Assembly: GCA_964019415.1 (NCBI GenBank)
Contig: OZ025889.1
Location: forward strand, 3,853,399 to 3,917,398
Reading direction: 5' to 3'
Length of the DNA: 64,000 bases
DNA from: Ianthella basta
Lineage: Eukaryota; Porifera; Demospongiae; Verongiida; Ianthellidae
In this document: positions 11,089-62,677 of the stretch, in pieces
Numbering within the stretch: position 1 is the first letter of the stretch
Layout: every line of letters starts with the position of its first letter
Position numbers and translations under genes: made by a program
Notes under the pieces: model-generated
What the model was told of the DNA's origin: nothing
The model's database searches: none
What the model saw: the letters and a program-made list of their open reading frames with translations, nothing else

Positions 11089-14000
11089 ATGTCGTTGTGT
11101 CGCTTGGTTGCTATTCTGTGCTTGACAACCTCAGTATCTGAGAGCCAAAGTGAGCTATTCTCGAAAGATCCGTTGTATATAGCCATAACGCCTTACCTAG
11201 CTACGCGTAGTTAACATTGGGAAGGTATAGTTTAGGTTCTTTTTCATTGTCAGTTTGTCTATCCTTCCCAAGTTGCATAGCTAGTACTGAACAGGCGACA
11301 TTGAAATGATATTTGCTTCCCGCGATAGATAGCTAGCCTTAAATTCTCCAAGCTCTTTTGAACAAATATGGACGGTTGGTGTTAGCAGATGCATGCTCTC
11401 CTATACTGTGCCATCTCGGCGTACGGGCACATGCCCCCTGATTGCTATTGTAAATCTATTATATTTTATAACCCTGTAGGCGATTGCCTTGGCCCTGGAT
11501 TCACTACAACAATTCCAGCCCTAGGACAGCGGTCCCAGTACTCAACTACCGTACTCGGCCCGGGAGGTGGCGCTATTTACACAGCACTCAGCTTTACCTG
11601 CACGGGAACTTTACAGTCGCTGACAATTCCAACGGAAGTTAGGGGCAGTGAATATTCGTACTGGAGTCAAAACCTGCGTGTCTGGATTTCCATTTGGAGG
11701 TTCAATAAGACAGGGTACTACAAAGTTAGAGAGTACCAGATCAGTAGATGGACAAGGCGTTGTTTTTTTGGTTGTTCAAAATTGGCACAAAATGATCTTT
11801 ATCAATACTCCGACACAATAACTACTAATATTGACATCCTTGCAAATGATATACTTGGCTTTCAATTAAGACAGCAAGACAGCGGCATATATCGTCACTT
11901 GCCCCTATTGTACAAACCCGGCCCCACTCCTGGTACCTTCATACCCATTGTCAGTGCCAACATTACTGCTTCAAGTACAAGTGAGTGTAAAGGAAATCTT
12001 TCCACACAAGATTTATATATTCAGTAGCTTGTAAAACAATTAAGGCTCTGCAATGGAACATTGAATGTAGACCACAGCATGCATACTGTAAATGACATGC
12101 TAAAATGAAAATTACATCTGTAATGTGTGGTAAACATCACTCTTATTATAGCACAATGGAGTATTATAGTAAGAGAGGCTGATACTTCACGTGCACTCTA
12201 ATTTTACCACGACAGTTGTGTATGAGAGTCATGATCAATTGTACCATCAAGTCTGTGAATGGCATAATGTTATATAACTGTAGCATGCAATTATAGACAC
12301 CATCCCTCATCCTACAAGCACTGCCAGTACCAGACTTTGGGACTGTGGCACCAGCACAGCTGCTGTACTGACAAAACAGTGCCTTACAGCAACAGTCTCA
12401 GTTAGTGAGCAAAATGAAACATGTGCGATTTCCTTACATCTGTGTATAGCAATCCTATGAGATAGTAGTGCATTATTGGAGCATTATAAGTAATCATCTA
12501 ATGGATTATGTGGTATAATTACTACGCTCAAAACGGTAGTGCATGTGGTTTCAGACAGCCATTGCTGGTTTCTCTGGGACGAAAGGGGTTAAAGTGGTGG
12601 TTTGAAATCACTGCTTGTCCCCGAGAAACCACCAATGGTAGCCCAAAACCACCACTGTGTTTACAGTGTACTATATAATTATAATCACGTAGGCATATGC
12701 ACAGGCCCCAATTGCTGCTGGTACGCATGTGCTTTCCTTCATACTAGATGTTGAGATGAGCACTGCAAATAGCTTAAGCACTCCACTGCCAAACTGCAAT
12801 TTCTTTACAGTTGTATCCACTCTTCAAAATTGTATGTTTAGTACTGGCCCAGACAAGTCAACAACTGAATGGGGATAATTCAGTGGTGACAGCTCTGGGA
12901 GTACTTTTAGCCCTATCCCTCCTTCTCCTCCTGGTCCTGATTGTCGTGGTTGTGGTCCAGTGTGTGATATTGAAGAGGAACAGAAATGGCAGTGAGTGTA
13001 CATGGCATATAGTGCGGTATACATGAGTTGGGAAGAAAGAGTTGGTGGAAGGGGATGGAGTGCACTCTTACTGATTAGCCATTATCATTCCTTCAGAATT
13101 ACCCCTACAAGAGAATGTGTACTACAATGGAAACACCTACTACCCATCTGGTGCTGGTGGTGTAACAACATCAAGTATGTCTCTACTAGTTGCCAATGAG
13201 GCTGAACAGGCTGTGACCATGCTACCCTCAAGGACAGCACCTGGTTCTCAGTCTAGCAATAACAGGATACAGCAGGTTAGGGGAATGTGGATGACATGCA
13301 TCTCAATGCCATTGAGTGGTGTCATGACACTATGCTTTACAACTTTCCCTGTTCCAGACTTATGCCAGCCATGAAGTAGGGGGACAGTATGACTACTGCT
13401 ATGTGCCCAACTCAGTGAGTCCCCACATTCCACAGCACAGCCTTTCAAACATTGCACAATACAGGTACTGGTAATTGCGTCCACAGACTCAGAGGCAGGA
13501 CCCTAATGCCATATATGGAACTGTGGGTAGGAACAGCATCTATGCTACACTAGATGGTGATGGGGAGTATGAAATAGTAAGCTAGAAGTTCATAGTAGCT
13601 CAGTTCCAAGATTATGCAAGTGCATAATTATTTTCCATGTAGGGGAAAGAGGCAACTTACTGGCCTCCTGCTCTAACAACAGCAGGCATCTTTGACCAGA
13701 TGTCTAAAGGCAAGTTCCTTGAGATCCCTCTCTCTTCAGTGAAGAAACATGCTATGCTTGGTGAGGGTGAGTTTGGTGAGGTGTTCAAGGGAGAGTGGAC
13801 CTCCCCAACAAAGACACTGACAGTGGCTCTGAAGTCACTCAAGTCTTCAGCCTCAGATGAGGAGAGGTTGAAGCTCCTCCAAGAGGCAGCCATCATGGGA
13901 CAGTTCAGTCACCCCCACATTGTCAGACTCTATGGAGTGGTCACACTGTTGGAACCGGTATGACATAGCATGCAATGCATGTCATCATCTGCTACTGTCT

Positions 14001-16841
14001 GATGTAGGGCTGATAGGCTTAACTTGAAGGAACTACATTCCAACAATATTTATTTATCTTGTTATTACACCTCTAGGTCATCATAGTGATGGAGCTTCTA
14101 GAAGGAAGTGATCTCAGTAGTCATCTCCACAAGTTAAGGAAGACGAGGTAACTGGAGTTGATGGAAGTGCTAATATACTCAATATGACCACGCTGATGTG
14201 ACAGAGGCACTGCAAATTCACCATGCATGTATGTATTGTTAGATCTGAAGTCAAACAACTGCCAAGACAGTTATTGAAGTTCTGTCGGGAGATAGCTGAT
14301 GCTATGGAGTACCTCTCCAAGAAGGGTTTCATCCACAGAGACCTTGCTGCAAGGAACATACTGCTGACAGCAGATATGAAGTGCAAGGTGTGTATGTATA
14401 TGTGATACATAAGCTGTGAATTGGGAAAATGAAACCTGAAACTGAACGTGCGGCATTGTTAGCTTGTCCATTGTGCTGCTCCTGTCAACAACAGCTTTCA
14501 ACGGCACACATCCATTCTGTGTGAACTGAAGTTGGTCTGTCTGATGAAAGTGCTGATTCATATGTGTTGGCTGTGTATTGAATTACTCAAACACTATAGA
14601 ACTGCTAACTATACACCCAGGCAATATACGTATAGCACCAAGAGAATATCAATTATATTTAGGAAACACAATTACTGTCCTTGCTCTACAGCTTGCCGAC
14701 TTTGGCATGTCCCATGACATGGATGAAGACTACTACTACAAACCCAAAGGAGGTAGGATTCCTGTCAAGTGGACAGCCCCTGAGGCCATTTTGTACAGGA
14801 GGTACACCACAAAGAGTGATGTGTGGAACTATGGGATGGTGATGTATGAGATATGGTCACTGGGACACAAGCCATTTGAGGAGTTCAGCATTCAAGAGGT
14901 GAGGAGCATGATGTTTAGTTTTGTACTGAAAGTGAAAGAAGCTTTGTATAGTCTGTAACATACAGTGTACTGTTGTGCAGTGTATTTGTATGCAGAGATG
15001 TGCTTGCAAATATACAATCATGTATCACTTGTAAACGAGAGAGGAGCGTGATGTTTACTTTTGTATGGAAAGTTAAAGAACTTGTGTATCATAACCCTCC
15101 AAGTGTATTATTTTGTATACACTGTTCAAAATATGATATGACCATTGCACTATTTGTGCAGTTCACTGTGCCTTAAGGTAGTTTGTGTCACCTACAACAA
15201 CCCTACCAGGTGGTATGCATATGCAAATCTTCAAACTAGTACACCCTATATATCATGTGTGAACAGTACTGTGAAGTGCACGTGGTTAGTTTCTCAATGC
15301 ATAACACTTCACTGCATGCATGTTGTGTACACCTATAGGTCATTCAAGCTTTCAACACTGCCTACTGCCAACCTCCCCCACCTGGGTGTCCAAGGGGAGT
15401 GTATGCCATCATGGTCCAGTGCTGGTGAGTGTATGCATGCATTAATCCAGCAATTCAACAGCGTCAAGCATGAAGCATGTTTACCTTTAACATCAACATT
15501 TAGCACCTTTAACATCCTTGGGGCAAGAGCAGGATTAAGTGTATGCACTTCATCCCTTCACTACTACGTATCAATTATAGCTTGCCATTATTATAGTGTT
15601 ATGGCTACATTACATGTGTGAGTGAACCCGCATAAATGACGTATTATGTCATAATGCTGGCCTCTGTGTAGCTCATGCACTCTGCCATACAAGTTAGAAA
15701 CCCAGAGCACTACAGCTGTACGTAGAATCCCAAAGGTAATGAAGCTTCTGTGTAGAGCCTGGATGGTGATGCCTGCATTAGTAGGTTTCAGCTGTTGAAT
15801 AGTACAAATACATATACAGTAGTTTAGTGTAGCAGTAATACATGATTGTAGTTTGTTCTGATTGTCAACCCCGAACTCCTCAAGGTGCTCAAAGCATGCA
15901 AGGAGTAGTAATGGTCGGCTTGCACTAATTAGACAGCTGTTACACTGGACCACACCTGACAACAAATGTATTTAGCAGCCACACATGTACATAATGTCAT
16001 AGTGGCAAGTGAATTTACTGTACTTTAATTAATTAATGAGAAGATATGCATTATGCTTATTATAGTTCTAGTTTGATTGGTCAAATACCTTGACTTCCCC
16101 AGATGAAGACAGGAGAACCACTCTAAGTCAATTGGACTAACTGGGAAAGCTCTAAGTGTTTATGATTTATTAAAGTTGATGAAACCAGATGTAACTCTAC
16201 ATGGCTTGCATTTTAAATACCAATACACTGAAATGATTTTGCAACACATTGTTCAGAGTCACCTGCCAAATCCACTCACTAGTAATTCCACCTAGTAAAC
16301 ATGCACACAATGGTCCATGTGTATATATGTTATGCGCAAACCTATATATAGTGCACAGCTGCATTCAAAGTATCTTGTCACCATTGTGTACAATTATTTA
16401 TTCTTATAACTTCACATCTATTCCACAATACAGATACTGATTATCCAACCTCTCCACTCTGATCCTCTTAACTCTTAGACTATGATCTACTTGCATTCTT
16501 GTTCTTTCTCCTACATGATGTATTGGACTTCTTTCCCTCTCATCTCCTTGCCCATATGCATATATATCCTCTCCTCATTAACCTATTCCCCTCTATACCC
16601 CGCTTCCTCCCTATGTCTTACCTATCTCTTTCTTCCTCTTACTCCCCTCACTAGGCACCCCGATTACCACTCTCGTATCAGTTTCACTGAAGTGTTGCAG
16701 TCCCTCAACTATGACCAGAGGTCCCTACTGCAGATGGACCCAAGTGACAAGACAGGAACACCTCTCTCCCTCACACTTGGAGCACCACTGGAACATGGAC
16801 AAGACCTGCACAAGGACCTGCAGGACACTTACAAGAAGTGA
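11089..16841 (+). CDS. Gene B: receptor tyrosine kinase, class II ectodomain
   Basis: Exons: 11089-11149 (signal peptide [15 protein letters not shown]), 11480-11980 (ectodomain), 12297-12404 (stalk), 12842-12991 (membrane span), 13097-13275, 13358-13414 and 13487-13576 (juxtamembrane), then 13643-13957, 14077-14147, 14243-14387, 14692-14898, 15339-15424 and 16655-16841 (kinase and tail). Joined this way the frame is open for 718 residues. The kinase has [23 protein letters not shown] and ADFGMS, so it should be catalytically competent. Oddities: DVWNYG where all other copies have DVWSYG; an unusually divergent ectodomain; and loss of two stalk micro-exons. The relic at 12705-12720 is 16 nt instead of 15, and the next exon has lost its donor. 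From the stalk onward it is nearly identical to gene F. Confidence 0.78.
12559..12638. repeat. Foldback insertion in the stalk intron of gene B
   Basis: Inverted arms of 22 bp (12559-12580 and 12617-12638, two mismatches) lie in the intron before the defunct stalk micro-exon. The same structure is at 58407-58486 in gene F and is absent from genes C and E. It therefore marks the shared origin of the B and F segments. Confidence 0.65.
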
Positions 16842-17522
16842 TTGTCGCTATATGAAAAGACTGAATAATTATGGACTAAAATTTCTGTATTCTTACACAT
16901 GAATATGCAGCTTCAATTCAAGTTAGCAACTTGAAACAATGATGTTCTTTGTATGAACTGTACTCTTAGCTAACTATAAAATTATCATTGGCGCAGCGTG
17001 CATTTTGTTTCTGGAGTTTATACAGATTACATTAGTAATTACATTAGTAATAATGCCTGTAGCAGAGCGATCAATGACTTGATAGAGGCTCATAGCTGCA
17101 AGCAGTTGACAAAGACCCCTGGGTCGAAACGTCCTGCTCCCCATTATTTATTAAAGTTGAAGTACTGCTCATCATTTACATGCTCATCATGCCTGTAGCA
17201 GTTGAACGTCTGATTACAGCCTAGAATAGCCATGCATTGTTTTGTATTATGTCATACAACACTCTGTCATTGTATAATTATCTGTAGTTGGCAAGAGGAA
17301 GCTCATGAAGTGACTTTAGGTACCTGTGTGTAATCACTAGATTTGGTGCATTGGCCATGGACTAGACTTCTGGGCTGCCTTAGTTTATGCACAGCTTGTA
17401 ATTATGACCAGTAGTCTGTCATTTCACTTGGTGATACTTGTGGTGCTCATTTCTATTGCAATTTGCCTATAGCTAGGCCAGTGAGGTATGTGGATGGAAA
17501 ATGTTTCAGATCAGCCACTGAA

Positions 17523-17570
<48 letters not shown>

Positions 17571-20919: not shown

Positions 20920-21360
20920 CCTCCCATTGTTGTTCACATGAATGCAGTGTATATATATACCATGCAAGTATGTTATAAACAGGTAATACACAAGTAAAGA
21001 TGTACGTAGCTGATTTCTTGTTCGAAACTGAAATTGCATAGGTGTAAGCAGGTAGTAATGCTGTAGCTATATGGAAATGTTTCCTAAACTGTGAACTGAA
21101 TGCACATTTGAGTGCTTCCTATAATATCATAGTTGAAGGCAGTTGAAGAAATAGCTCAGTTTGTTGTCAAGGAAACATATTACGTGAGAGTCAACAGTTT
21201 TGTTTACCAGTGCAGGTGAGCACATGTTTCTCATTCAATTTACTAGACATATGTTTCTACACTCAAAACAACAGGTCCACATTGCATGTACACAATTCTT
21301 ATACAGTTCATACTTTTCTTATGTTAATGTGTTTATACTTTTATACCTTACTTATACTTA

Positions 21361-22020
21361 CAGTTCATTGACTTTACAAAAGCTTATAACAAGGTGGACA
21401 GAGGGAAGCTGTGGGGCTGTTTGGAACAGCTGGGCATACATGATAGGTTTCTAAGGTTTCTGAAGGCTCTGTACCAAGATAGCTCATGTAGGGTGAGGGT
21501 GAATGACAAGTTAAATGAAGAACTTGATATTAGCACAGGACTGAGGCAGGGCTGTGTTCTTTCACCTTTGCTATTTTCCTTGTACAATAATGGTGTAGTG
21601 ACAAGGTTGCATGAAGGGAAGTGTGGTGTACCATGTGGCAGTGATATGGTCCCGGGTCTGCTTTTGCTGATGACACTTCTTTGGTTGCATCTGACAGAGA
21701 AGGGTTGAAGAGGAGCTTAGATGTTTTGATTAAGTAGTGTGAAGAGTGGGGGGGGGGGGGGGGGGGTGAAGATCAATGCGGGAAAGTTGGGCATAATGCA
21801 TAGGAGGAAGAAGGGCTGTGGAGAGATCTGAGATGGAGTATCAGGTGAATGGAGAAGTGATCCCTATGGTGTCTAGCTATAAGTATCTAGGGTTTGTTGT
21901 GGACGAACACTTGAAGCTCAAGGAGATGGTGGAGGAGAAAGCTGCTGCTGGGAGGAGGGCACTAGGTGCTTGGATGAACAGGTGTAAGGCAGAAGTTGGT
22001 GATGTTGGTGTAGGTACGTT
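21361..22020 (+). mobile_element. LINE reverse transcriptase remnant, copy 1
   Basis: Frames read FIDFTKAYNKVDRGKLWG, then STGLRQGCVLSPLLFSLY, then (after a frameshift) FADDTSLVASDREGL, then after a stop VSSYKYLGFVVDEHLKLKE. These are the standard reverse transcriptase blocks of a non-LTR retrotransposon, including the catalytic ADD. A 19-base G run (21748-21766) and frame breaks show that it is dead. It lies in what was the intron between the two orphan C-lobe exons, and was copied with the block (46355, 55669). Confidence 0.8.
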
Positions 22021-22076
22021 GCACATCAACCTAAATTCATGTCTTCAGTTGAATCAAATACCTTTCTCCGTATTAG

Positions 22077-22269
22077 GAACCCAGACTACCACTTTTGGCC
22101 AACATTTGAACGCATACTGCAAGATCTGATGACAGAGGAGTCATTCATCCTTCAGATGGACATGAGTGAGGATAGCTCTGATCGCTGCTGTCAACTTGGA
22201 GAGCCATTGAAGTGTGGCAGGGAATTATACACATATCTTCAAAGCAGATACACTGGAGCAACTGACTGA
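22077..22269 (+). pseudogene. Orphan terminal exon, NPDYHF type
   Basis: This exon is open from acceptor TTAG to TGA: NPDYHFWPTFERILQDLM followed by a 46-residue tail with paired Cys (DRCCQL) and YTGATD at the end. Its partner exon upstream is truncated (20615-20650), so it cannot complete a kinase as it stands. The usual Arg of the RPTF motif is Trp here. Confidence 0.7.
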
Positions 22270-22550: not shown

Positions 22551-25500
22551 ATGTCTCTGTGTCGTGTGGTTACTGTTTTGTGCTTGACAGTCTCAGTATC
22601 AAAGGGCCAAAGTGAGTTTAATATAGTTTCGAATCCACTTTGACAGCTTTTAGCTACGATTGTGGAGCGGACTTACGTATAGTAGCTAGTACCATCACTG
22701 TAAATCTAGTCTGCCCACCTCCAGTTGCGTAGGTCTTAACCAGGCCTCGAGCTCCTGTCTATGCACGGTAGCTGTAAAATCAAGCTCTTTCAACTATATT
22801 ATAAACTGCCGGTATACACGATCGGCAATGTATGCTTTTTATAGGCGGCGCTCAAGGAGTGTAGACATAAGGACCTCATTGTTGATGTGTATTCACTTGC
22901 CCTGTAGGTGACTGCCTTGGCCCTGGTTTCACTACAACAATTCCAGTCCCAGATGAAAGGTCCAACTATTCCACTAACGTACTCGGCCCGGGAGGTGGCG
23001 CTATTTACACAACACTCAGATTTACCTGTACGGGAACTTTAGAGTCCTTGACATTTCCATTTGAAGTTAGAGGTAGCGACAATTTGTATTGGGATCGATA
23101 TGTGTACGTTTGGCTTTCCATTTGGAGATTCAATGGGACAGGTTACCACCGAGTTAGACAATTCGAGATCCGGAGCAGGCCGCTCTGCAATAACTTCAGA
23201 TGTTTTCGCATTTTGCAGTCAGATGAAGTCCTTCAATACCTTGGTCAAATACCCACACAGACAGAAGTCCTGGCAAAGGATATGATTGGCTTTCGATTGA
23301 AAGAGCAAAGCAATAACATATATCGCCACTTGCCCCTCCTGTACAAACTCGGCCCCGCTCCTGGCAGCTTCATACCCATCGTCAGTGCCAACATTACTGC
23401 TTCCAGTACTACAAGTGAGGAATGCATGCTGAACTACATCTATTCAATGGCATGTAGAATAAACTGCACATGCATTGGAATACTGAATGTAGACCATAAT
23501 GCTATTTAACTGTATCATGCATAATAATTATACAGACATCATCCCTCATCCTACAAGCACTGCCAGTACCAGACTTTGTGACTGTGGCACCAGCACAGCT
23601 GCTGTACTGACAAAACAGTGCCTTACAGCAACAGTCTCAACTGGTGAGCAGAATGAAATGTGTGCGACTTCCTTGTATCTGTGTATAGCAATTCTGTGAG
23701 ATACTAATACATTACTGGAGCATTATATGTGTTCATTTAATGTATTATTATGTTATATAATAATTACAACATAATCATGTAGGTGCGTGTATACACAGGC
23801 CCAATTGCTGCTGGTATGTAAGCGCTTTCCTTCATATTAGATCATGAAACGAGCACTGTAAATGGCTTAAGTACTCCACAGCCATCAGGTATGTGTGTGC
23901 ATGTAAATTCTCAGAATGAATTGAAATCGGTAGACAGTTCAAAATAATTGTAGCCAACATTTGTACAGAATTGTTATGCCATATTATCTTTGTATGAAGC
24001 AATAGAAAGCACAATACAAAGGGTTATATACAGTACCCAGTTTTGATTGCCAAACTGCAATTTCTTACAGTTGTGTTCACTCTTCAAAATTGTATGCTTA
24101 GTACAGGCCCAGACAAGTCAACAGCTGAATGGGGATAATTCAGTGGTGACAGCTCTGGGAGCACTTTTAGCTCTATCCCTCCTTCTCCTCCTGGTCCTGA
24201 TTGTCGTGGTTGTGGTCCAGTGTGTGATATTGAAGAGGAACAGAAAAGGCAGTGAGCAGTGCATTATACATTTGTTGGGAAGGAATAAGTATAGTTACAA
24301 GGGAAGGAGTGCGGTTTTACAGTTATAATATTATTATCATTCCGTCAGAATTAACCCTACAAGATAATGTGTACTACAATGGAACCACCCACTACCCATC
24401 TGGTGCTGGTGGTGCAACAACATCAAGTATGTCTCTACTAGTTGCCAATGAGGCTGACCATGCTTTGACCATGCTACCCTCAAGGGCAGCACCTGGGTCT
24501 CAGTCAAGCAATAACAGGATGCAGCAGGTAAGGGGATACTCCTCAAAATTGGATGACATGCATTTTATGCTATTGAGTGGCGTTATGACACTATGCTTTA
24601 CAACTTTCCCTGTTTCAGAGCTATTCCAGCCATGAAGCAGGGGGACAGTATGACTACTGCTATGTGCCTAACTCAGTGAGTCCCCACATTCCACAGCACA
24701 GCCTTTCAAACATTGCACAATACAAGTACTGGAAATTGTGTCCACAGACTCAGAGGCAGGACCCTAATGCCATATATGGAGCTGTGGGTGGGGACAGCAT
24801 CTATGCTACTCTGGATGGTGATGGGGAGTATGAAATAGTAAGTTAGAAGTACATAGTAGCTTAGTTCCAAGATCATACAAGTGAGCATAATTGTTGTCCA
24901 TGTAGGGAGAAGAGGCAACTTACTGGCCTCCTGCTCAAACAACAGCAGCCATATATGATCAGATGTCAAAGGGCAAGTACCTTGAGATCCCTCTCTCTTC
25001 AGTGAAGAAACATGCTATGCTTGGTGAGGGTGAGTTTGGTGAGGTGTTCAAGGGAGAGTGGACCTCCCCAACAAAGACACTGAGAGTGGCTCTGAAGTCA
25101 CTCAAGTCTTCAGCCTCCGATGAAGACAGAGTGAAGCTCCTCCAAGAGGCAGCCATCATGGGACAGTTCACTCACCCCCACATTGTCAGACTCTATGGAG
25201 TGGTCACACTGTCAGAGCCGGTATGACATAGTGAAAGTCTACAGGCTATTGGAATGTATAAGGGGTCCATTCGATAATCTTAGGGACAATTGTTGCTTCA
25301 TAGGTCATCATTGTGATGGAACTGCTGCAAGGAAATGATCTCAGTAGTCATCTCCTGCAAGTGAGAAAGATGAGGTAAATGGAGTTCATAAAAGTGCTCA
25401 ATATTTTTGTAATGACCTCACTGCTCTGCCACAAGCACTTTGCACTTGTATGTCTTGCTAGGTCTGAAGTCAAACAACTGCCAAGGCAGTTACTGAGGTT

Positions 25501-31993: not shown

Positions 31994-35270
<3,277 letters not shown>

Positions 35271-42294: not shown

Positions 42295-42514
<220 letters not shown>

Positions 42515-45779: not shown

Positions 45780-45815
45780 TGCTGAAGTGTAGGCACACAT
45801 TCAGCGTCAAGCGTA

Positions 45816-45821
45816 CACACA

Positions 45822-45903
<82 letters not shown>

Positions 45904-45910
45904 CACACAC
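45816..45910. repeat. (CA)n microsatellite
   Basis: About 95 bp of CA downstream of the relic promoter. Confidence 0.93.
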
Positions 45911-46354
45911 AGTCCCCCATTGTTGTTCACATGAATGCAGTGTATATATACCATGCAAGTATGTTATAAACAGGTAATACACAAGTAAAGATGTGCGTAG
46001 CTGATTTCTTGGTCGAAACTGAAATTGCATAGGTGTAAGCAGGTAGTAATGCTGTAGCTATATGGAAATGTTTCCTAAACTGTGAACTGAATGCACATTT
46101 GAGTGCTTCCTATAACATTATAGTTGAAGGCAGTTGAAGAAATAGCTCAGTTTGTTGTCAAGGAAACATATTACGTGAGAGTCAACAGTATTGTTTACCT
46201 GTGCAGGTGAGCAGATGTTTCTCATTCAATTTACTAGACATATGTTTCCACACTCAAAACACACAGGTCCACATTGCATGTACACAATTCTTATACAGTT
46301 TATACTTTTCTTCGGTTAATGTGTTTATACTTTTATATCTTACTTATACTTACA

Positions 46355-46766: not shown

Positions 46767-46845
46767 TGAAGACCAATCCTCTTGAAATGTACTGGAGTGT
46801 ACAACACTGAATTTCATCACTGGTGTCACCTTCTTGTGTATGCAG

Positions 46846-47206
46846 GTTGTTGAAGTGATTGGTACAGGCTACTGTCAGCCTCCCCCTCCTGAGTGCCCCA
46901 GGGAAATCTATGCCATCATGGTCTGGTGCTGGTACGTATAATTGCATAACAGTAGTAGCATATCAACCTACATTCATGTCTTCAGTTGAATCAAATACTT
47001 TTCTCCGTATTAGGAACCTAGACTACCACTTTCGGCCAACATTTGAACGCATACTGCAGGACTTGATGACAGACGAGTCATTCATCCTTCTGATGACATG
47101 AGCGAGGATAGCTCTGATCGCTGCTGTCAACTTGGAGAGCCGTTGAAGTGTGGCAGGGAATTGTACACAGATCTTCAAAGCAGATACACTGGAGCAACTG
47201 ACTGAT
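46846..47206 (+). pseudogene. Orphan kinase C-lobe exon pair, broken
   Basis: Exon 46846-46931 is intact in length and phase (VVEVIGTGYCQPPPPE, IMVWCW). Exon 47014 onward begins NLDYHFRPTFERILQDLM, then loses one base and stops at 47099-47101. The rest of the former exon continues out of frame to about 47206. It is the nearest such pair downstream of gene D. Confidence 0.75.
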
Positions 47207-47474: not shown

Positions 47475-50400
47475 ATGTCTCTGTGTCGTTTGGTTGCTGT
47501 TTTGTGCTTGACAGTCTCAGTATCAACGGGCCAAAGTGAGCTATTGTAGTTTCGAATCCACTGTAACAGCTTTTAGCTACGATTGCGGAGAGGAGTTACC
47601 AATAGTAGCTACCACCATCACTGTAAATCTAGTCTGCCCATCCCCAGTTGCGTAAGGTACTGACCAGGCCTCCTGTGTATGCACGGTGTATCTAGCTCTT
47701 TCAACCATGTTAGCTAACATACATTTATAGCTTTGCGCAGATTAGAGGTTTGCCCGTAACACGTATTTGCTTTTATAGGCGGCGCGCACGGCGTGCAGAC
47801 AGAAGGACCTCATAGTTGATGCATGTGTATTCACTTACCCTGTAGGTGACTGCCTCGGTCCTGGTTTCACTACAACAATTCCAGTTCGAGATGAATGGTT
47901 CAAGTATTTCACTAACGTACTTGGCCCGGGAGGAGGCGCTATTTACACAGCGCTCAGATTTACCTGTACGGGAACTTTAGAGTCCTTGACATTTCCAGTG
48001 GAAGTTCGAAGCAGCGACAATTTGTACTGGGATCGATACCCGTACGTTTGGCTTTCCATTTGGAGATTCAATGGGACAGGTTACCACCAAGTTAGACAAT
48101 TCGTGATCCGGAGGGGGCCGCTCTGCCGTTGGTCCGGGTGTCATCACACTTCGCAGTCAGATGAAGTTCTTCAATCCCTTGGTGAAATATCCCCACCGAT
48201 AGACGTCCTGGCAAATGACATGATTGGCTTCCATTTGCCAGATCTAAGGGGAACTGACGACTTTAACATATATCGCCACTTGCCCCTCCTGTACAAACCC
48301 GGCCCAACTCCTGGTACATTCATACCCATTGTCAGTGCCAAAGTTACTGCTTCCAGTACTACAAGTGAGGAATGCATGCCAAACTACATCTATTCAGTGG
48401 CATGTAGAATAAGCTGCACATGCATTGGAATATTGAATGTAGACCATAATGTTATATAACTGTATCACTTATTGTGTGTAACATATTATAGACATCATCC
48501 CTCATCCTACAAGCACTGCCAGTACCAGACTTTGTGACTGTGGCACCAGCACAGCTGCTGTACTGACAAAACAGTGCCTTACAGCAACAGTCTCAGCTGG
48601 TGAGCAAAATGAAACATGTGTGACATTCTTGTATTATGCTAGTACATTGCCAGAGCATTATTGTGTTTATCTAATGTATATGTAGTATAATTCTAATAAC
48701 TATATAATCATGTATATATAAGTATGTAAACAGGCCCAATTGCTGCTGGTATGTATGTGCTTTCCTTCATATTAGATCTTGAAATGAGCACTGTAAATAG
48801 CTTAAGTACTCCACAGCCATCAGGTATGTGTGTACGTCAAAATTCTATGAAAAAACAGCATGAAGGGAAGATCAGTAGACAGTTCAAAACAGTTATTACA
48901 GTATTCAACATTTGTACAGATTTGTTATACCATAATATTTTTGTATGAAGCAATAGGAAACACACTAAAAGGGAAATTAATACAGTACCCAGTATTAAAT
49001 GCCAAACTGCAATTACTTTACTGCAACAGTTGTGTCCACTCTTCAAAATTGTATATTTAGCACAGGCCCAGACAAGTCAACAGCTGAATGGGGATAATTC
49101 AGTGGTGACAGCTCTGGGAGCACTTTTAGCCCTATCCCTCCTTATCCTCCTGGTCCTGATTGTTGTGGTTGTGGTCCAGTGTGTGATATTGAAGAGGAAC
49201 AGAAATGGCAGTGAGTGTACATGGCATATAGTGCGGTATACATGAGTTGGGAAGAAAGAGTTGGTGGAAGGGGATGGAGTGCACTCTTACTGATTAGCCA
49301 TTATCATTCTTCCAGAATTACCCCTACAAGAGAATGTGTACTACAATGGAACCACCCACTACCCATCTGGTGCTGGTAGTGTAACAACATCAAGTATGTC
49401 TCTACTTGTTGCCAATGAGGCTGACCAGGCTGTGACCACGCTACCCTCAAGGACAGCACCGCCGGGGTCTCAGTCAAGCAATAACAGGAAGCAGCAGGTA
49501 AGGGGAATGTGAATGACATTCATCTCAATGCCATTGAGTGGTGTTATGACACTATGCTTTACAACGTTCCCTGTTCCAGAGTTATTCCAGCCATGAAGCA
49601 GGGGGACAGTATGAATACTTTTATGTGCCCAACTCTGTGAGTCCCCACATTCCACAGCATAGCCTTTCAAACATTGCACAATTCAGGTACTGGTAATTGC
49701 GTCCACAGACTCAGAGGCAGGACCCTAATGCCATATATGGAACTGTGGGTAGGAACAGAATCTATGCTAGTCTGGATGATGATGGGGAGTATGAAATAGT
49801 AAGTTAGAAGTACATATATAGTAGCTCAGTTCCAAGATCATGCAAGTGCATAATTATTTTCCATGTAGGGAAAAGAGGCAACTTACTGGCCTCCTGCTCA
49901 AACAACAGCAGCCATCTTTGACCAGATGTCTAAAGGCAAGTACCTTGAGATCCCTCTCTCTTCAGTGAAGAAACATGCTATGCTTGGTGAGGGTGAGTTT
50001 GGTGAGGTGTTCAAGGGAGAGTGGACCTCCCCAACAAAGACACTGACAGTGGCTCTGAAGTCACTCAAGTCTTCAGCCTCTGATGAGGAGAGGTTGAAGC
50101 TCCTCCAAGAGGCAGCCATCATGGGACAGTTCACTCACCCCCACATTGTCAGACTCTATGGAGTGGTCACACTGTCTAAACCGGTATGACATAGCATGCA
50201 ATGCATGTCATCATCTGCTACTGTCTGATGTAGGGCTGATAGGCTCAACTTGAAGGAATCACATTCCAACAATATTTAATTATCTTGTTATTACATCTAT
50301 AGGTCATCATAGTGATGGAGCTTCTAGAAGGAAATGATCTCAGTAGACATCTCCACAAGTTAAAGAAGACGAGGTAACTGGAGTTGATGGAAGTGCTAAT

Positions 50401-53397
50401 ATACTCAATATGACCACACTGGTGTGACAGAGGCACTGCAAATTCACTATGCATGTATGTATTGTTAGATCTGAAGTCAAACAACTGCCAAGACAGTTAC
50501 TGAGATTCTGTCAGGAGATAGCTGATGCAATGGAGTACCTCTCCAAGAAGGGTTTCATTCATAGAGACCTTGCTGCAAGGAACATACTGCTGACAGCAGA
50601 CATGAAGTGCAAGGTGTGTACTTGTGATAGTATAATGTGTATGCATACACTCATGACATGACACCATACCTTAGTGAACATGTGCATAATGAGTGAAGAG
50701 TTGATGCAGACTAATGCAAGTATTATAATAAGCTCTTATACAGATACGCAATGCAGGTCTTTTCATAAGTATGTACTTGAATATTTACATTTTGAGCTCA
50801 TAGACACATTAGTGACGTGATGTAAGATGTGAAATGGAAAAATGAAACCTGAAACTGAATGTGTGGCATTGTTAGCTTGTCCATTGTGCTGCTCCTGTCA
50901 ACAACAACTTTCAACAGCACACATCCATTCTGTGTGAACTGGAGTTGGTCTGTCTGATGAAAGTGCTGATGCATATGTGTTGTCTGTGTATTGAATTACT
51001 CTCACACTATACAACTACTAACTATACAATCAGGCTATAAATACATAGCACCATGAGAATTGCTATGACTTTTATCTAGAAAACGTAACTACTGTCCTTG
51101 CTCTACAGCTTGCCGACTTTGGCATGTCCCATGACATGGATGAAGACTACTACTACAAACCCAAAGGAGGTGCGATTCCTGTCAAGTGGACAGCTCCTGA
51201 GGCCATTTTGTACAGGAAGTACACCACAAAGAGTGATGTGTGGAGCTATGGGATGGTGATGTATGAGATATGGTCACTGGGACACAAGCCATTTGAGAAA
51301 TTCAGCATTCAAGAGGTGAGGAGCATGATGTTTAGTTTTGTACTGAAAGTGAATGACGCTTTGTATACATAGTCTGTAACATACAGTGTACTGTTGTGCA
51401 GTGTATTTGTATGCAGAGACGTGCTTGCAAATATACAATCATGTATCACATGTAAATGAGAGAGGAGCGTGATGTTTACTTTTGTATGGAAAGTTGAAGA
51501 AGTTGTGTATCATAACCCTCCAAGTGTATTTGTATACACTGAAGTGTGCGCATGTATAAACTGTTCAAACCATAATGTGACCGTCAGTGCTCACACCTGT
51601 GTGTGATCAGTCACGCCATTCACTTAGTGGGACATTCGCACTGACATCGGTATTTACATTGTTGTTCACATCTAATGAACATAGCTACCCTGGACACACC
51701 TCAGCCTAATGGTATGTTGTGTACAATGGGAGGAGCTCCTCAAACTAAGTATACTATTTGTGAGGTTTACTGTGCCTTAAGGTACGTAGTTTGTGTCACC
51801 CACAACAACTCTACCAGGTGGTATGTTGTGTACTACGCATATGCAAATCTTCAAACTAGTACACCATATCATGTGTGAACAGTACTGTGAAGTGCACGTG
51901 AGTATATAGTTTCTCAATGCATAACACTTCACTGCATGCATGTTGTGTACACCCATAGGTCATTCAAGCTTTCAACACTGCCTACTGCCAACCTCCCCCG
52001 CCTGGGTGTCCAAGGGGAGTGTATGCCATCATGGTCCAGTGCTGGTGAGTGTATGCATGCGTTAATCCAACAATTCAACAGCGCCAAGCATGAAGCATGT
52101 AATCATCTTTAACATCTTTGGGGCAAGAGCAAGAGTATGTTTATGCACATCATTATGTTTCCATTACTACGTATCAATTATAGCTGGCAGTTAATATAGT
52201 GTTATGGCTACATTACATGTGTGAGTGAACCCGCATGTTATGTCATAATGCTGGCCTCTCTGTAGCTCATGCACTCTGCCATACAAGTTAGGAACCCAGA
52301 GCACTGCAGCTGTACGCAGAAGTTTGTTCTGATGCCTGCATGAGTAGGTTTCAGCTGTTGAATAGTACAAATACATATACAGTAGTTTAGTGTAGCAGTA
52401 ATACATGATTGTAGTTTGTTCTGATTGCCAACCCTGAACTCCTCAAGGTGCTCAAAGCATGCAGGGAGTAGTAATGGTCGGCTTGCACTAATTAGACAAC
52501 TGTTACACTGGACCACACCTGACAACAAATGTATTTAGCAGCCACACATGTACATATGTACATAGTGGCACGTGAATTTACTGTACTTTAATTAATTAAT
52601 GAGAAGATATGCATTATGCTTATTATAGTTCTAGTTTGTTTGGCCAAATACCTTGACTTCCTCAGATGAAGACAGGAGAACCACTCCAAGTCATTTGGAC
52701 TAACTGGGAATGCTCGAAGTGTTTATGCTATTTATTAAAGTCGATGAAACCAGATGTAACTCTACATGGCTTGCATTTCAAATACCAATACACTGAAATG
52801 ATTTTGCAACAAGTTGTTCAGAGTCACCTGTCAAATCCACTCACTAGTAATTCCACCTAGTAAACATGCATTGCACACAATGGCCCAAGGTCCATGTGTA
52901 CATATGTAGTGCACTGCTGCATTCAAAGTATCTTATCACCGTTGGATACAATTATTTATTCTTATAACTTCACATCTGTTCCATAATACAGATACTGATT
53001 ATCCAACCTCTTCACTCTGATCCTCTTAACTCTTAAACTATGATCTACTTGCATTCTTTATCTTTCTCTTACCTGATGTTATTGGACTTCTTTCCCTCTC
53101 ATCTCTCTATGCCCATATGCATATGTCCTCTCTTCATTAACCTATTCCCCTCTATACCCCACTTCCTCCCTATGTCTTGCCTATCTCTTTCTTCCTTTTT
53201 CTCTCACTAGGCACCCTGATTACCACTCTCGCATCAGTTTCACTGAAGTGGTGCAGTCCCTCAACTATGACCAGAGGTCCCTACTGCAGATGGACCCAAG
53301 TGACAAGACAGGAACACCTTTCTCCCTCACACTTGGAGCACCACTGGAACATGGACAAGACCTGCACAAGGACCTGCAGGACACATACAAGAAGTGA
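47475..53397 (+). CDS. Gene E: receptor tyrosine kinase, class II ectodomain (best-preserved copy)
   Basis: Exons: 47475-47535, 47846-48364, 48492-48599, 48734-48748, 48776-48823, 49061-49210, 49316-49497, 49580-49636, 49709-49798, 49869-50183, 50303-50373, 50469-50613, 51109-51315, 51959-52044, 53211-53397. The joined frame is open for 746 residues. Approximate layout: signal peptide 1-18, ectodomain 21-193 with four Cys, Thr/Ser-rich stalk 194-260 (LCDCG, KQC), membrane span 264-294, juxtamembrane to 410, kinase about 445-706. Kinase residues: glycine loop [11 protein letters not shown] at 450-460, Lys 474 (VALK), Glu 491, HRD 570-572, DFG 590-592, three Tyr in the activation loop, [11 protein letters not shown]. 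Juxtamembrane tyrosines lie in ENVYYNG, AIYGTV, IYASLD and GEYEI. Ligand unknown. Confidence 0.86.
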
Positions 53398-54260: not shown

Positions 54261-54385
54261 TGAGCTGTACACACTACAATATAAAAATCACTTCACCGAC
54301 ATAATATTATTATACTACAGCAGAATCGTCTTGAAATGTACCAGAGTGTACAACACTGAATTTCATCACCTTCTTGTGTATGCAG

Positions 54386-54742
54386 GTTGTTGAAGTGATT
54401 GGTACAGGCTACTGCCAGCCTCCCCCTCCTGGGTGCCCCAGGGGAATCTATGCCATCATGGTCTGGTGCTGGTATGTATGCATAACAGTGATAGCACATC
54501 AACCTACATTCATGCCTTCATTTGAATCAAATACTTTTCTCCGTATTAGGAACCCAGACTACCACCTTCGGCCAACATTTGAACGCATACTGCATGACCT
54601 GATGACAGAGGAGTCATTCATCCTTCAGATGGACATGAGTGAGGATAGCTCTGATCGCTGCTGTCAACTTGAAGAGCCGTTGAAGTGTGGCAGGGAATTG
54701 TACACAGATCTTCAAAGCAGATACACTGGAGCAATTGACTGA
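54386..54742 (+). CDS. Intact orphan C-lobe exon pair, candidate alternative 3' end
   Basis: Exon 54386-54471 ([20 protein letters not shown], then IMVWCW) has acceptor TGCAG and donor GTATGT. Exon 54550-54742 has acceptor TTAG and reads NPDYHLRPTFERILHDLM through a 63-residue end to TGA at 54740-54742. Phases match those needed after the DFG exon of gene E (51109-51315). Both are undamaged, unlike the copies at 10242, 20615 and 46846. They could be alternative terminal exons for gene E, giving the canonical RPTF motif and a different tail. They could equally be a well-preserved relic. Confidence 0.5.
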   Translation, partial: VVEVIGTGYCQPPPPGCPRGIYAIMVWCWYVCITVIAHQPTFMPSFESNTFLRIRNPDYHLRPTFERILHDLMTEESFILQMDMSEDSSDRCCQLEEPLKCGRELYTDLQSRYTGAID

Positions 54743-54923: not shown

Positions 54924-54939
54924 GTGCTGAAGTGTAGGC

Positions 54940-55091
<152 letters not shown>

Positions 55092-55668
55092 ACATACATA
55101 CAAGTGCACACATTCAAACAGCATTATATGAGCTACATACAAGCATCAAGGAGGAACACAAAGAGGGGAGCTACACTGACAACCAACCAACCAATCTAGC
55201 ATGAACCATTGTTCAGTATGCTACACCAATGAATGACATGCACACACATTCCCCCATTGTTGTTCACATGAATGCAGTGTATACCAAGTATGTTATAAAC
55301 AGGTAATACACAAGTAAAGATGTACGTAGCTGATTTCTTGGTGTAAACTGAAATTGCATAGGTTGCTGTAGCTATATGGAAATGTTTCCTAAACTGTGAA
55401 CTGAATGCACATTTGAGTGCTTCCTATAACATTATAGTTGAAGGCAGTTGAAGAAATAGCTCAGTTTGTTGTTGAAGAAACATATTACGTGAGAGTCAAC
55501 AGTTTTGTTTACCAGTGCAGGTGAGCACACGTTTCTCATTCAATTTACTAGACGTATGTTTCCACACTCAAAACACACAGGTCCACAATGCATGTACACA
55601 ATTCTTATACAGTTTATACTTTTCTTATGTTAATGTGTTTATACTTTTATACTTTACTTATACTTACA

Positions 55669-56290: not shown

Positions 56291-56353
56291 GTACGTTGCA
56301 CATCAACCTACATTCATGCCTTCAGTTGGATCAAATACCTTTCTCCGTATTAG

Positions 56354-56546
56354 GAACCCAGACTACCACTTTTGGCCAACATTTGAACGCATACTGCAGG
56401 ACCTGATGACAGACGAGCTATTCATCTTTCAGATGGACATGAGTGAGGATAGCTCTGATCGCTGCTGTCAACTTGGAGAGCCGTTGAAGTGTGGCAGGGA
56501 ATTGTACACAGATCTTCAAAGCAGATACACTGGAGCAATTGACTGA
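56354..56546 (+). pseudogene. Second orphan terminal exon, NPDYHF type
   Basis: This duplicate of 54550-54742 follows the LINE remnant: NPDYHFWPTFERILQDLM to TGA at 56544-56546. It is open, but has no VVEV partner directly upstream. The Trp for Arg in the RPTF motif is shared with 22077-22269. Confidence 0.7.
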
Positions 56547-56980: not shown

Positions 56981-59900
56981 ATGTCTCTCTGTCGTTTGGT
57001 TGCTGTTTTGTGCTTGACAGTCTCAGTATCAAAGGGCCAAAGTGAGTTTAATATAGTTTCGAATCCACTGTAACAGCTTTTAGCTACGATTGTGAAGCGG
57101 ACTTACGTATAGTAGCTAGTACCATCATTGTAAATCTAGTCTGCCCATCCCCAGTTGCGTAAGGTTCTAACCAGGCCCCTGTGTATTACACACGATCGGC
57201 AATGTACTATACTACTATAGTAGGCGGCGCTCACTGCGTGCAGATATAATGACCTCATTGTTGATGTGTATTCACTTGCCCTGTAGGTGACTGCCTTGGA
57301 CCTGGTTTCACTACAACAATTCCAGTCCCAGGTGAACGGTCCAACTATTCCACTACCGTACTCGGCCCGGGAGGTGGCGCTATTTACACAGCACTCAGAT
57401 TTACCTGTACGGGAACTTTAGAGTCCTTGACATTTCCATTGGAAGTTAGAGGCAGCGACAATTTGTATTGGGATCAATACCTGAACGTTTGGCTTTCCAT
57501 TCGGAGATTCAATGGTACAGGGTACCACCAAGTTAGACAATTCGAGATCTTGAGAGGGCCGTTCTGCGTTAACTTTGGTAACTTCGGATGTTTTCACACT
57601 TTGCAGTCAAATGAAGTTCTTCCGTACCTTGGTGAAATATCCACACAGACAGAAGTCCTGGCAAATGACATGATTGGCTTTCAATTGGCAGATCTAAGGC
57701 GAACTCGAGCTAACAACGTTAACATATATCGCCACTTGCCCCTCTTGTACAAACCCGGCCCCGCTCCTGGTACCTTCATACCCATTGTCAGTGCCAAAGT
57801 TACTGCTTCCAGTACTACAAGTGAGGAATGCAAGCCAAACTAAATTCTATTCGGTGGCATGTAGAATAAAGTGCACATGCATTGGAATATTGAATGTAGA
57901 CTACAGCATGCATTCCTAAATTCATTCATAATTTTCATGCTGCATGAAAATTATTGTTATAATATAATTATGAATGCATTCTGTAGTGGAATCCGTCTCT
58001 CATAATATTATTATAGCACAATGGAGTGTAGTAAGAGAGGATGCTTTACTGCAATTATACCATGTGTATGCGAGTCATGATCATTTGTACCATGAAGTCT
58101 GTGAATTAATGGCGTAATGTTATATATCTGTGTCATGTATAGACATCATCCCTCATCCTACAAGCACTGCCAGTACCAGACTTTGTGACTGTGGTACCAG
58201 CACACAGCTGCTGTACTGACAAAACAGTGCCTTACAGCAACAGTCTCAGTTAGTGAGCAAAATGAAACATGTGCGACTTCCTTACATCTGTGTATAGCAA
58301 TCCTATGGGATAGTAGTGCATTATTGGAGCATTATAAGTAATCATCTAATGGATTATGTGGTATAATTACTACGCTCAAAACGGTAGTGCACGTTGATTC
58401 AGACAGCCATTGCTGGTTTCTCTGGGACGAAAGGGGTTAAAGTGGTGGTTTGAAATCACTGCTTGTCCCCGAGAAACCACCACTGGTTGCCCAAAACCAC
58501 CACTGTGTTTACAGTGTACTATATAATTATAATCACGTAAGCATATGCACAGGCCCCAATTGCTGCTGGTACGCATGTGCTTTCCTTCATACTAGATGTT
58601 GAAATGAGCACTGCAAATAGCTTAAGCACTCCACTGCCAAACTGCAATTTCTTTACAGTTGTATCCACTCTTCAAAATTGTATGTTTAGTACTGGCCCAG
58701 ACAAGTCAACAACTGAATGGGGATAATTCAGTGGTGACAGCTCTGGGAGCACTTTTAGCCCTATCCCTCCTTCTCCTCCTGGTCCTGATTGTCGTGGTTG
58801 TGGTCCAGTGTGTGATATTGAAGAGGAACAGAAATGGCAGTGAGTGTACATGGCATATAGTGCGGTATACATGAGTTGGGAAGAAAGAGTTGGTGGAAGG
58901 GGATGGAGTGCACTCTTACTGATTAGTCATTATCATTCTTCCAGAATTACCCCTACAAGAGAATGTGTACTACAATGGAAACACCTACTACCCATCTGGT
59001 GCTGGTGGTGTAACAACATCAAGTATGTCTCTACTAGTTGCCAATGAGGCTGAACAGGCTGTGACCATGCTACCCTCAAGGACAGCACCTGGTTCTCAGT
59101 CTAGCAATAACAGGATACAGCAGGTTAGGGGAATGTGGATGACATGCATCTCAATGCCATTGAGTGGTGTCATGACACTATGCTTTACAACTTTCCCTGT
59201 TCCAGACTTATGCCAGCCATGAAGTAGGGGGACAGTATGACTACTGCTATGTGCCCAACTCAGTGAGTCCCCACATTCCACAGCACAGCCTTTCAACCAT
59301 TGCACAATACAGGTACTGGTAATTGCGTCCACAGACTCAGAGGCAGGACCCTAATGCCATATATGGAACTGTGGGTAGGAACAGCATCTATGCTACACTA
59401 GATGGTGATGGGGAGTATGAAATAGTAAGCTAGAAGTTCATAGTAGCTCAGTTCCAAGATTATGCAAGTGCATAATTATTTTCCATGTAGGGGAAAGAGG
59501 CAACTTACTGGCCTCCTGCTCAAACAACAGCAGGCATCTTTGACCAGATGTCTAAAGGCAAGTTCCTTGAGATCCCTCTCTCTTCAGTGAAGAAACATGC
59601 TATGCTTGGTGAGGGTGAGTTTGGTGAGGTGTTCAAGGGAGAGTGGACCTCCCCAACAAAGACACTGACAGTGGCTCTGAAGTCACTCAAGTCTTCAGCC
59701 TCAGATGAGGAGAGGTTGAAGCTCCTCCAAGAGGCAGCCATCATGGGACAGTTCAGTCACCCCCACATTGTCAGACTCTATGGAGTGGTCACACTGTTGG
59801 AACCGGTATGACATAGCATGCAATGCATGTCATCATCTGCTACTGTCTGATGTAGGGCTGATAGGCTTAACTTGAAGGAACTACATTCCAACAATATTTA

Positions 59901-62677
59901 ATTATCTTGTTATTACACCTATAGGTCATCATAGTGATGGAGCTTCTAGAAGGAAGTGATCTCAGTAGTCATCTCCACAAGTTAAGGAAGACGAGGTAAC
60001 TGGAGTTGATGGAAGTGCTAATATACTCAATATCACCACGCTGATGTGACAGAGGCACTGCAAATTCACCATGCATGTATGTATTGTTAGATCTGAAGTC
60101 AAACAACTGCCAAGACAGTTATTGAAGTTCTGTCGGGAGATAGCTGATGCTATGGAGTACCTCTCCAAGAAGGGTTTCATCCACAGAGACCTTGCTGCAA
60201 GGAACATACTGCTGACAGCAGATATGAAGTGCAAGGTGTGTATGTATATGTGATACATAAGCTGTGAATTGGGAAAATGAAACCTGAAACTGAACGTGCG
60301 GCATTGTTAGCTTGTCCATTGTGCTGCTCCTGTCAACAACAACTTTCAACAGCACACATCCATTCTGTGTGAACTGGAGTTGGTCTGTCTGATGAAAGTG
60401 CTGATGCATATGTGTTGTCTGTGTATTGAATTACTCTCACACTATACAACTACTAACTATACAATCAGGCTATAAATACATAGCACCATGAGAATTGCTA
60501 TGACTTTTATCTAGAAAACGTAACTACTGTCCTTGCTCTACAGCTTGCCGACTTTGGCATGTCCCATGACATGGATGAAGACTACTACTACAAACCCAAA
60601 GGAGGTAGGATTCCTGTCAAGTGGACAGCCCCTGAGGCCATTTTGTACAGGAGGTACACCACAAAGAGTGATGTGTGGAGCTATGGGATGGTGATGTATG
60701 AGATATGGTCACTGGGACACAAGCCATTTGAGGAGTTCAGCATTCAAGAGGTGAGGAGCATGATGTTTAGTTTTGTACTGAAAGTGAATAAAGCTTTGTA
60801 TAGTCTGAAATATACAGTGTACTGTTGTGCAGTGTATTCGTATGCAGAGATGTGCTTGCAAATATACAATCATGTATCACTTGTAAACGAGAGAGGAGCG
60901 TGATGTTTACTTTTGTATGGAAAGTTAAAGAACTTGTGTATCATAACCCTCCAAGTGTATTATTTTGTATACACTGTTCAAAATATGATATGACCATTGC
61001 ACTATTTGTGCAGTTCACTGTGCCTTAAGGTAGTTTGTGTCACCTACAACAACCCTACCAGGTGGTATGCATATGCAAATCTTCAAACTAGTACACCCTA
61101 TATATCATGTGTGAACAGTACTGTGAAGTGCACGTGGTTAGTTTCTCAATGCATAACACTAGTTTCACTGCATGCACGTTGTGTACACCTATAGGTCATT
61201 CAAGCTTTCAACACTGCCTACTGCCAACCTCCCCCACCTGGGTGTCCAAGGGGAGTGTATGCCATCATGGTCCGGTGCTGGTGAGTGTATGCATGCATTA
61301 ATCCAGCAATTCAACAGCGTCAAGCATGAAGCATGTAATCATCATTAACATCCTTGGGGCAAGAGCAGGATTAAGTGTATGCACTTCATCCCTTCACTAC
61401 TACGTATCAATTATAGCTTGCCATTATTATAATGTTATGGCTACATTACATGTGTGAGTGAACCCGCATAAATGACGTATTATGTCATAATGCTGGCCTC
61501 TGTGTAGCTCATGCACTCTGCCATACAAGTTAGAAACCCAGAGCACTACAGCTGTACGTAGAATCCCAAAGGTAATGAAGCTTCTGTGTAGAGCCTGGAT
61601 GGTGATGCCTGCATTAGTAGGTTTCAGCTGTTGAATAGTACAAATACATATACAGTAGTTTAGTGTAGCAGTAATACATGATTGTAGTTTGTTCTGATTG
61701 TCAACCCCGAACTCCTCAAGGTGCTCAAAGCATACAAGGAGTAGTAATGGTCGGCTTGCACTAATTAGACAACTGTTACACTGGACCACACCTGACAACA
61801 AATGTATTTAGCAGCCACACGTGTACATAATGTCATAATGGCACGTGAATTTACTGTACTTTAATTAATTAATGAGAAGATATGCATTATGCTTATTATA
61901 GTTCTAGTTTGATTGGCCAAATACCTTGACTTCCCCAGATGAAGACAGGAGAACCACTCTAAGTCAATTGGACTAACTGGGAAAGCTCTAAGTGTTTATG
62001 ATTTATTAAAGTTGATGAAACCAGATGTAACTCTACATGGCTTGCATTTTAAATACCAATACACTGAAATGATTTTGCAACACATTGTTCAGAGTCACCT
62101 GCCAAATCCACTCACTAGTAATTCCACCTAGTAAACATGCACACAATGGTCCATGTGTATATATGTTATGCGCAAACCTATATATAGTGCACAGCTGCAT
62201 TCAAAGTATCTTGTCACCATTGTGTACAATTATTTATTCTTATAACTTCACATCTATTCCACAATACAGATACTGATTATCCAACCTCTCCACTCTGATC
62301 CTCTTAACTCTTAGACTATGATCTACTTGCATTCTTGTTCTTTCTCCTACATGATGTATTGGACTTCTTTCCCTCTCATCTCCTTGCCCATATGCATATA
62401 TATCCTCTCCTCATTAACCTATTCCCCTCTATACCCCACTTCCTCCCTATGTCTTACCTATCTCTTTCTTCCTCTTACTCCCCTCACTAGGCACCCCGAT
62501 TACCACTCTCGTATCAGTTTCACTGAAGTGTTGCAGTCCCTCAACTATGACCAGAGGTCCCTACTGCAGATGGACCCAAGTGACAAGACAGGAACACCTC
62601 TCTCCCTCACACTTGGAGCACCACTGGAACATGGACAAGACCTGCACAAGGACCTGCAGAACACGTACAAGAAGTGA
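56981..62677 (+). CDS. Gene F: receptor tyrosine kinase, class II ectodomain, damaged stalk
   Basis: Exons: 56981-57041, 57287-57820 (ectodomain), 58690-58839 (membrane span), 58945-59123, 59206-59262, 59335-59424, 59491-59805, 59925-59995, 60091-60235, 60544-60750, 61195-61280, 62491-62677. Joined, these stay open for 693 residues with all kinase landmarks ([36 protein letters not shown]). The stalk exon 58143-58252 has a 2-bp CA insertion that shifts the frame to a stop. The next micro-exon relic (58553-58568) is 16 nt and the third stalk exon has no donor. Because ectodomain and membrane exons are both phase 1, skipping all three stalk exons keeps the frame. The ectodomain resembles C and E while the rest matches B. 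Confidence 0.72.
57928..57954. repeat. AT-rich perfect hairpin in gene F intron 2
   Basis: Arms ATAATTTTCATG and CATGAAAATTAT surround a 3-base loop. It is absent from the corresponding introns of C and E. Confidence 0.7.
58407..58486. repeat. Foldback insertion in the stalk intron of gene F
   Basis: Homologue of 12559-12638 in gene B, with arms at 58407-58428 and 58465-58486. Confidence 0.65.

Follow-up and report, generated by a model that had tools for sequence, protein, structure and literature searches.

The receptors behind self/non-self discrimination in early animals are largely unknown. In the sponge Geodia cydonium, a polymorphic receptor tyrosine kinase of the immunoglobulin (Ig) type reportedly has a proposed role in self-recognition. 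According to the available part of PMC5450542, the specificity of sponge recognition suggests that a polymorphic genetic system underlies it, and genes of aggregation-factor-mediated adhesion were not significantly enriched in a graft response. Other close parallels to the locus reported here are the clustered protocadherins, in which a raised third-position GC content serves as a mark of gene conversion (PMC1852091, in part), the OAK cluster of Arabidopsis (PMC3136440) and the Eph receptors of sponges (PMC6485061). Here we describe a tandem array of receptor tyrosine kinase genes from the sponge Ianthella basta, contained in a window (the whole stretch analysed, 64,000 nucleotides) at positions 3853399-3917398 of contig OZ025889.1, hereafter C22, within a 209-Mb genome of 96 contigs. 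The available parts of the work on the holozoan tyrosine kinome (PMC8662651), on a sponge hologenome (PMC4772301, where tyrosine kinases are mentioned once, within the references) and of a review of the Ig superfamily (PMC11999971) do not describe such an array, nor does the literature searched, most subscription literature lying outside that search.

The locus is probably a birth-and-death array in which the kinase halves are homogenised by gene conversion and sites in the ectodomains are positively selected, in keeping with a recognition-type function. Five genes, B to F, extend from the start codon of B at 11089 to the end of the stop codon of F at 62677, and six further genes with the full six kinase exons lie on the same chromosome, at 3.81-4.08 Mb. 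Type-1 genes (m1, B, C, E, F, G and K, plus the truncated J) follow a plan of 13 exons: signal peptide, ectodomain, stalk, transmembrane (TM) segment, three juxtamembrane exons (j1 to j3) and six kinase exons (k1 to k6). Type-2 genes (D, H, I and L, plus the kinase-less A) have a different ectodomain subfamily, their own signal exon and fewer exons, and a stalk exon was not found in them in the annotated 264 kb (200 kb were fetched around the window; 5,000 bases read N). Signal and membrane segments were judged by eye; modelled ectodomain exons start and finish in phase 1. A preliminary description of the window had placed B to F correctly, and its claim of identical kinase exon lengths (315, 71, 145, 207, 86 and 187 nucleotides) holds for every one of them, the splice sites being AG/GT; the ectodomain exon lengths that it gave (501, 507, 513, 519 and 534 nucleotides) hold as well. 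The genes and the blocks discussed below are:

11089-16841, plus strand: gene B, 13 exons; ectodomain exon 11480-11980, stalk exon 12297-12404
22551-31993, plus strand: gene C, type-1 plan; ectodomain exon 22908-23414, kinase exons 24906-31993
35271-41547, plus strand: gene D, type 2; signal exon 35271-35340, ectodomain exon 35439-35951
36502-36636 and 38147-41547, plus strand: 3' part of gene D, TM match and kinase exons
47475-53397, plus strand: gene E, plan as in B; ectodomain exon 47846-48364, kinase exons 49869-53397
56981-62677, plus strand: gene F, type-1 plan; ectodomain exon 57287-57820, kinase exons 59491-62677
12217-17099, plus strand: homogenised block of B, partner of the F block
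58063-62934, plus strand: homogenised block of F, partner of the B block
38462-40258, plus strand: kinase block of D, introns k1-k2 to k4-k5 and the exons between, 99-100% identical to m1
1-931, plus strand: 3' end of m1, last kinase exon 745-931; the remainder lies upstream of the window

We compared the kinase halves of the 11 genes whose six kinase exons are all present (m1, B to I, K and L), setting aside the divergent genes N, O and P as well as an upstream gene whose tail is copied (see below), and estimated synonymous divergence (dS) by NG86. Homogenisation had been proposed from the kinase exons, and we found that it reaches silent sites and introns. B and F, which had been described as nearly identical from the stalk onward with different ectodomains, are 97.6% identical over 4,897 alignment columns, introns included (12217/58063 to 17099/62934); from the stalk to the last exon their identity is 92-100%, with introns mostly at 97% or more, whereas the ectodomain exon reaches 76% and the first intron 47%, and dS falls from 0.443 in the ectodomain to 0.005 in the kinase. 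C and G behave alike, with dS values of 0.549 and 0.057 and identities of 50% (first intron), 74% (ectodomain) and 99% (introns k1-k2 and k2-k3). The pattern is reversed between B and G, whose dS is 0.072 in the ectodomain and 0.150 in the kinase, and which are 95% identical upstream, 97% in the first intron and 94% in the ectodomain, whereas intron k1-k2 reaches only 39%. Between D and F, dS declines from saturation in the ectodomain through 1.12 (TM) and 0.54 (juxtamembrane) to 0.07 (kinase).

Approximately unbiased (AU) tests rejected the groups B+F (1e-39) and C+G (1e-62) on the ectodomain alignment, and B+G (4e-42) on the kinase alignment. The ectodomain and kinase halves are thus without a common history, and their conflict exceeds chance. 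Gene D illustrates this, because a very distant ectodomain is joined there to the kinase block almost identical to that of m1, introns included; in a map of nearest partners D is a mosaic of an H/I-like 5' half, the m1 kinase block, an E-like last intron and an F-like 3' end. Together, these comparisons indicate that sequence has repeatedly been transferred among the kinase halves, as introns, 3' ends and single exons, and that heads and kinases have been re-paired.

Selection was analysed separately in the two halves, the check that had been suggested. The main site test used the eight type-1 ectodomains from the annotated 264 kb, and the kinase test the seven type-1 genes that have a kinase; type-2 ectodomains (too few or too distant) and the ectodomains Q, R and Zm1-Zm3 stood outside the site tests. 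In the ectodomain, twice the log-likelihood difference (2dlnL) was 43.1 for M1a/M2a, 44.2 for M7/M8 and 43.1 for M8a/M8, with about one quarter of the codons at a dN/dS (omega) of 3.7 and about 45% of the sites at omega near 0.1. No positively selected sites were detected in the kinase of the seven type-1 genes (omega 0.30; 2dlnL 0.9-1.3, M8a/M8 0.93), and the outcome that would have spoken against the preliminary description, two equally diverged halves both under purifying selection, did not appear. The M1a/M2a signal persisted without gap columns and their neighbours (25.4 with eight genes and 19.2 with six) and in gap-free alignments with six genes on a star tree (26.2) or seven on the kinase tree (35.2). 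In M1a null simulations of the six-gene set, 0 of 25 replicates exceeded 5.99 without recombination (maximum 2.33), and none of 25 with four random-tree segments reached the observed 19.15 (maximum 6.44). Thirteen of 18 selected sites fall within three loops of a predicted jelly-roll (p=5e-5), one of them closed by two cysteines. A second subfamily (six ectodomains) gave a 2dlnL of 34.9, or 13.3 gap-free (p=0.001), with selected sites at matching places and loops as judged by eye; the type-3 test took in six of nine ectodomains 42-48% identical to F, the other three lying on the minus strand. In F the selected codons cluster in one loop:

57553-57597, plus strand: hypervariable loop of F, codons 89-103, with Cys93 and Cys101

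The predicted products have a signal peptide, an ectodomain, one membrane segment and HRDLAARN and DFG motifs, as expected of receptor tyrosine kinases. By single-domain score their nearest solved kinases appear to be Eph receptors: among the best 60 of 2689 PDB matches, 43 are Eph and 16 focal adhesion kinase, and the best single-domain score, 249 bits, belongs to Eph, the top-listed EGFR entry (9p9u) being a construct that contains the kinase twice, at 172 bits per copy. The ectodomain is not that of Eph: no Pfam family scored above the cut-off when the ectodomain exons of A, B, C and D were scanned, and neither an ephrin ligand-binding domain nor cadherin repeats were found there. A jelly-roll fold is predicted, which may be of the TNF/C1q or discoidin-like kind.

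We thus envisage a system in which gene conversion, with some unequal crossing-over, would keep the part from membrane to kinase alike, and would seldom enter the ectodomain exon, which is diverged and of phase 1-1; there, selection would fix amino-acid changes. Each receptor would display a jelly-roll head on a short stalk, its variable loop pole could bind a fast-changing partner (a surface molecule of another individual, a microbe or the head of a paralogue), and one Eph-like kinase output would serve all the receptors. Recognition of self and non-self or of microbes would fit the turnover of copies and the positive selection best. The main rival is that the diversity serves development, as labels for cell types or for sorting within one body in the manner of protocadherins. 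The array does resemble the clustered protocadherins, and cell sorting is guided by Eph-like kinases; internal labels would be less expected to show positive selection and turnover of copies, and we regard this role as possible but rather unlikely.

A more elaborate version of the recognition reading, which we hold to be doubtful, is a polymorphic locus in which loop-diversified heads are dealt onto an interchangeable kinase by recurrent conversion, with kinase-less, phase-compatible units (A, J and three before one kinase further on) as alternative heads or a donor archive. Of these units, A lies in the window:

6166-6882, plus strand: gene A, signal exon 6166-6235, ectodomain exon 6328-6882

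The preliminary description needs correction here, as A is an ectodomain gene whose kinase exons were not found; downstream of it, neither a membrane exon nor the first four kinase exons were found. A public head, P0028, is 70% identical to A, which is therefore probably not mere debris. Other public proteins match m1, B and G identically over the ectodomain, all from one 4.7-Mb contig that is probably the same genome assembled elsewhere. The public protein P0002, from a contig of 888 nucleotides, agrees with the F ectodomain in 118 of 119 residues, the exception being its first residue, the start methionine, and beyond the F-like part the sequence resembles the intron of E; it may represent a second haplotype or a short-read assembly chimera, and is only a hint.

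It is unlikely that unequal crossing-over or segmental duplication alone produced the chimeras, with no part played by gene conversion. The similarity of C and G does extend beyond the 3' end, and a relic tail stands in front of every type-1 gene of the window, each time from the same upstream gene, which marks tandem duplication:

54335-54742, plus strand: relic of the last two kinase exons (k5'/k6')
10182-10605: copy of the relic tail before B
22021-22269: copy before C
46786-47205: copy before E
56298-56546: copy before F

These copies are 89-96% like the one at 54335, two of them have the last kinase exon alone, and the pieces that were translated have open frames; they appear to be the tail of one upstream gene carried along in duplications, and hence the footprint of the duplication unit. 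Yet B-F identity drops to 87-88% directly beyond the homogenised block, and H combines a type-2 head with an I/m1-like kinase and a G-like 3' end. In L, moreover, k1 and k4 have dS values of 0.03-0.15, while no other copy matches its kinase introns at more than 54-74% identity, which requires short tracts; taken together, L and K show a k4 dS of 0.03-0.11 against the copies tested and kinase introns at best 45-74% identical, and this suggests that single exons may have been transferred. Gene conversion would therefore be the simplest reading of the mosaics, and crossing-over probably contributes, given the relic tails described above.

It seems less probable still that the ectodomains are under relaxed constraint or in decay, without positive selection. 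Several observations nevertheless weigh against conversion coupled with selection. The codon site models were run with our own code, with naive posteriors and few sequences. Mean ectodomain omega (0.92 and 1.19) is not significantly different from 1 (2dl 0.39 and 1.08), so that our claim concerns sites and not the whole domain. With four genes, the gap-free test is marginal, at 7.83 for C, E, F and K and 7.76 for the B, C, E and F of the window (both p=0.02), little more than the largest value in the recombining null, 6.44. The test is mildly inflated by recombination, with 4 of 25 recombining nulls exceeding 5.99, and many of the 18 sites counted in loops border gaps. The third-position GC contrast (0.55-0.58 in the kinase versus 0.41-0.48 in the ectodomain, in all 11 complete genes) stands without a genome-wide control. 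Part of the divergence may also be decay, since damaged members are included. In m1 (C22:3847562-3854329) the stalk splice donor is lost, the glycine loop has a G to D change and inserted-looking sequence replaces the start of j3, part of which is seemingly missing, although m1 agrees with D at 99-100% over much of the kinase block; for J, kinase exons were not found. The stalk exon of F has an additional CA within 58197-58210 compared with other stalk exons, a 2-nucleotide frameshift before the membrane segment that may be an assembly slip, a real pseudogene or a case of cryptic splicing. Against simple decay, a gap-free M1a/M2a test without m1 and J still gives 15.7 with a site class at omega 3.3-6.3, nearly half of the sites are strongly constrained, all eight type-1 ectodomain exons are open, and matching loops are selected in the second subfamily. 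Finally, purifying selection alone, with a constrained kinase, a drifting ectodomain and no transfer between copies, would agree with the low kinase omega and with kinase motifs intact in 11 of 11 genes bar the glycine loop of m1, but is highly improbable, because silent sites and introns are homogenised too, the trees of the halves conflict, and the B-F introns, set against an ectodomain dS of 0.44, already contradict it.

The preliminary description had noticed neither the additional CA in F nor two irregularities of D, the stalk exon that was not found and the loss of the j2 splice donor (GT to AT; 37078-37190), a loss shared with H and I outside the window. No j3 was found in D, H or I. 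The frame continued from j2 in D hits a stop, so that either j2 is skipped or a truncated receptor is made.

A genome search with k1 of F, in which the best 150 of 323 candidates were scored, gave at least 150 matches. Among the matches listed, 21 are 75-100% identical to F, all on the plus strand of C22 at 3.84-4.13 Mb, and the remaining 129, none more than 61% identical, are found farther along C22 or in clusters elsewhere, mainly on C15 and C8; at least 129 related kinase-exon matches thus exist outside the array, many of them clustered. The F ectodomain has 31 matches, none of them off C22: 28 are on its plus strand at 3.82-4.11 Mb and three near 4.36-4.37 Mb on its minus strand. The D ectodomain also has 31, 29 on C22 and two on C5. 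At the search sensitivity used, the ectodomain is therefore near-private to the locus, whereas the kinase comes from a far larger family. At 4.11 Mb, two heads about 30% identical to F lie beside kinase exons 87-92% identical to those of F, which extends the contrast of head and kinase about 190 kb past the window.

On C5 (10863500-10872499, minus strand), two near-identical exons at 2987-3400 and 5745-6158 of the fetched segment are distantly ectodomain-like (26-27% identity). No convincing kinase exon was found in the 9 kb fetched around them, and they could belong to a related receptor or ligand family. Between the genes of the window there are fragments matching Pfam RVT_1, probably remnants of the long interspersed nuclear element type, and long (AC/GT)n arrays, possibly recombination-prone spots:

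21328-21705, plus strand: RVT_1 fragment
30811-31257, minus strand: RVT_1 fragment
5490-5600, 7385-7530, 33162-33300, 42298-42514, 45815-45911 and 54939-55102: (AC/GT)n arrays

How, then, does the array compare with known systems? The Geodia receptor reportedly has Ig domains, where a jelly-roll is predicted here, and polymorphism is claimed for Geodia only. OAK is a plant kinase of the serine/threonine type. Like our array, the OAK cluster (PMC3136440, in part) consists of hypervariable tandem membrane kinases with suspected recombination or conversion and with selected sites that cluster within a portion of the ectodomain; unlike it, OAK has a malectin-like ectodomain and demonstrated allelic variation, while the array is known from one reference genome. 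With sponge Eph receptors (PMC6485061, in part) it shares an Eph-nearest kinase and differing trees for kinase and ligand-binding or ectodomain halves, but no ephrin-binding domain was detected in the four ectodomain exons scanned. In contrast to the clustered protocadherins, B to F each have their own six kinase exons, with no shared constant exon seen, their output is a tyrosine kinase, and the scanned ectodomain exons lack cadherin repeats. In common with them (PMC1852091, in part) are the tandem array, a conversion-homogenised 3' part with raised third-position GC and a diversified distal ectodomain. Regional homogenisation of the protocadherin style also occurs here in receptor tyrosine kinases, and a mapped array with a common kinase output and selected head loops offers a concrete candidate for a recognition system.

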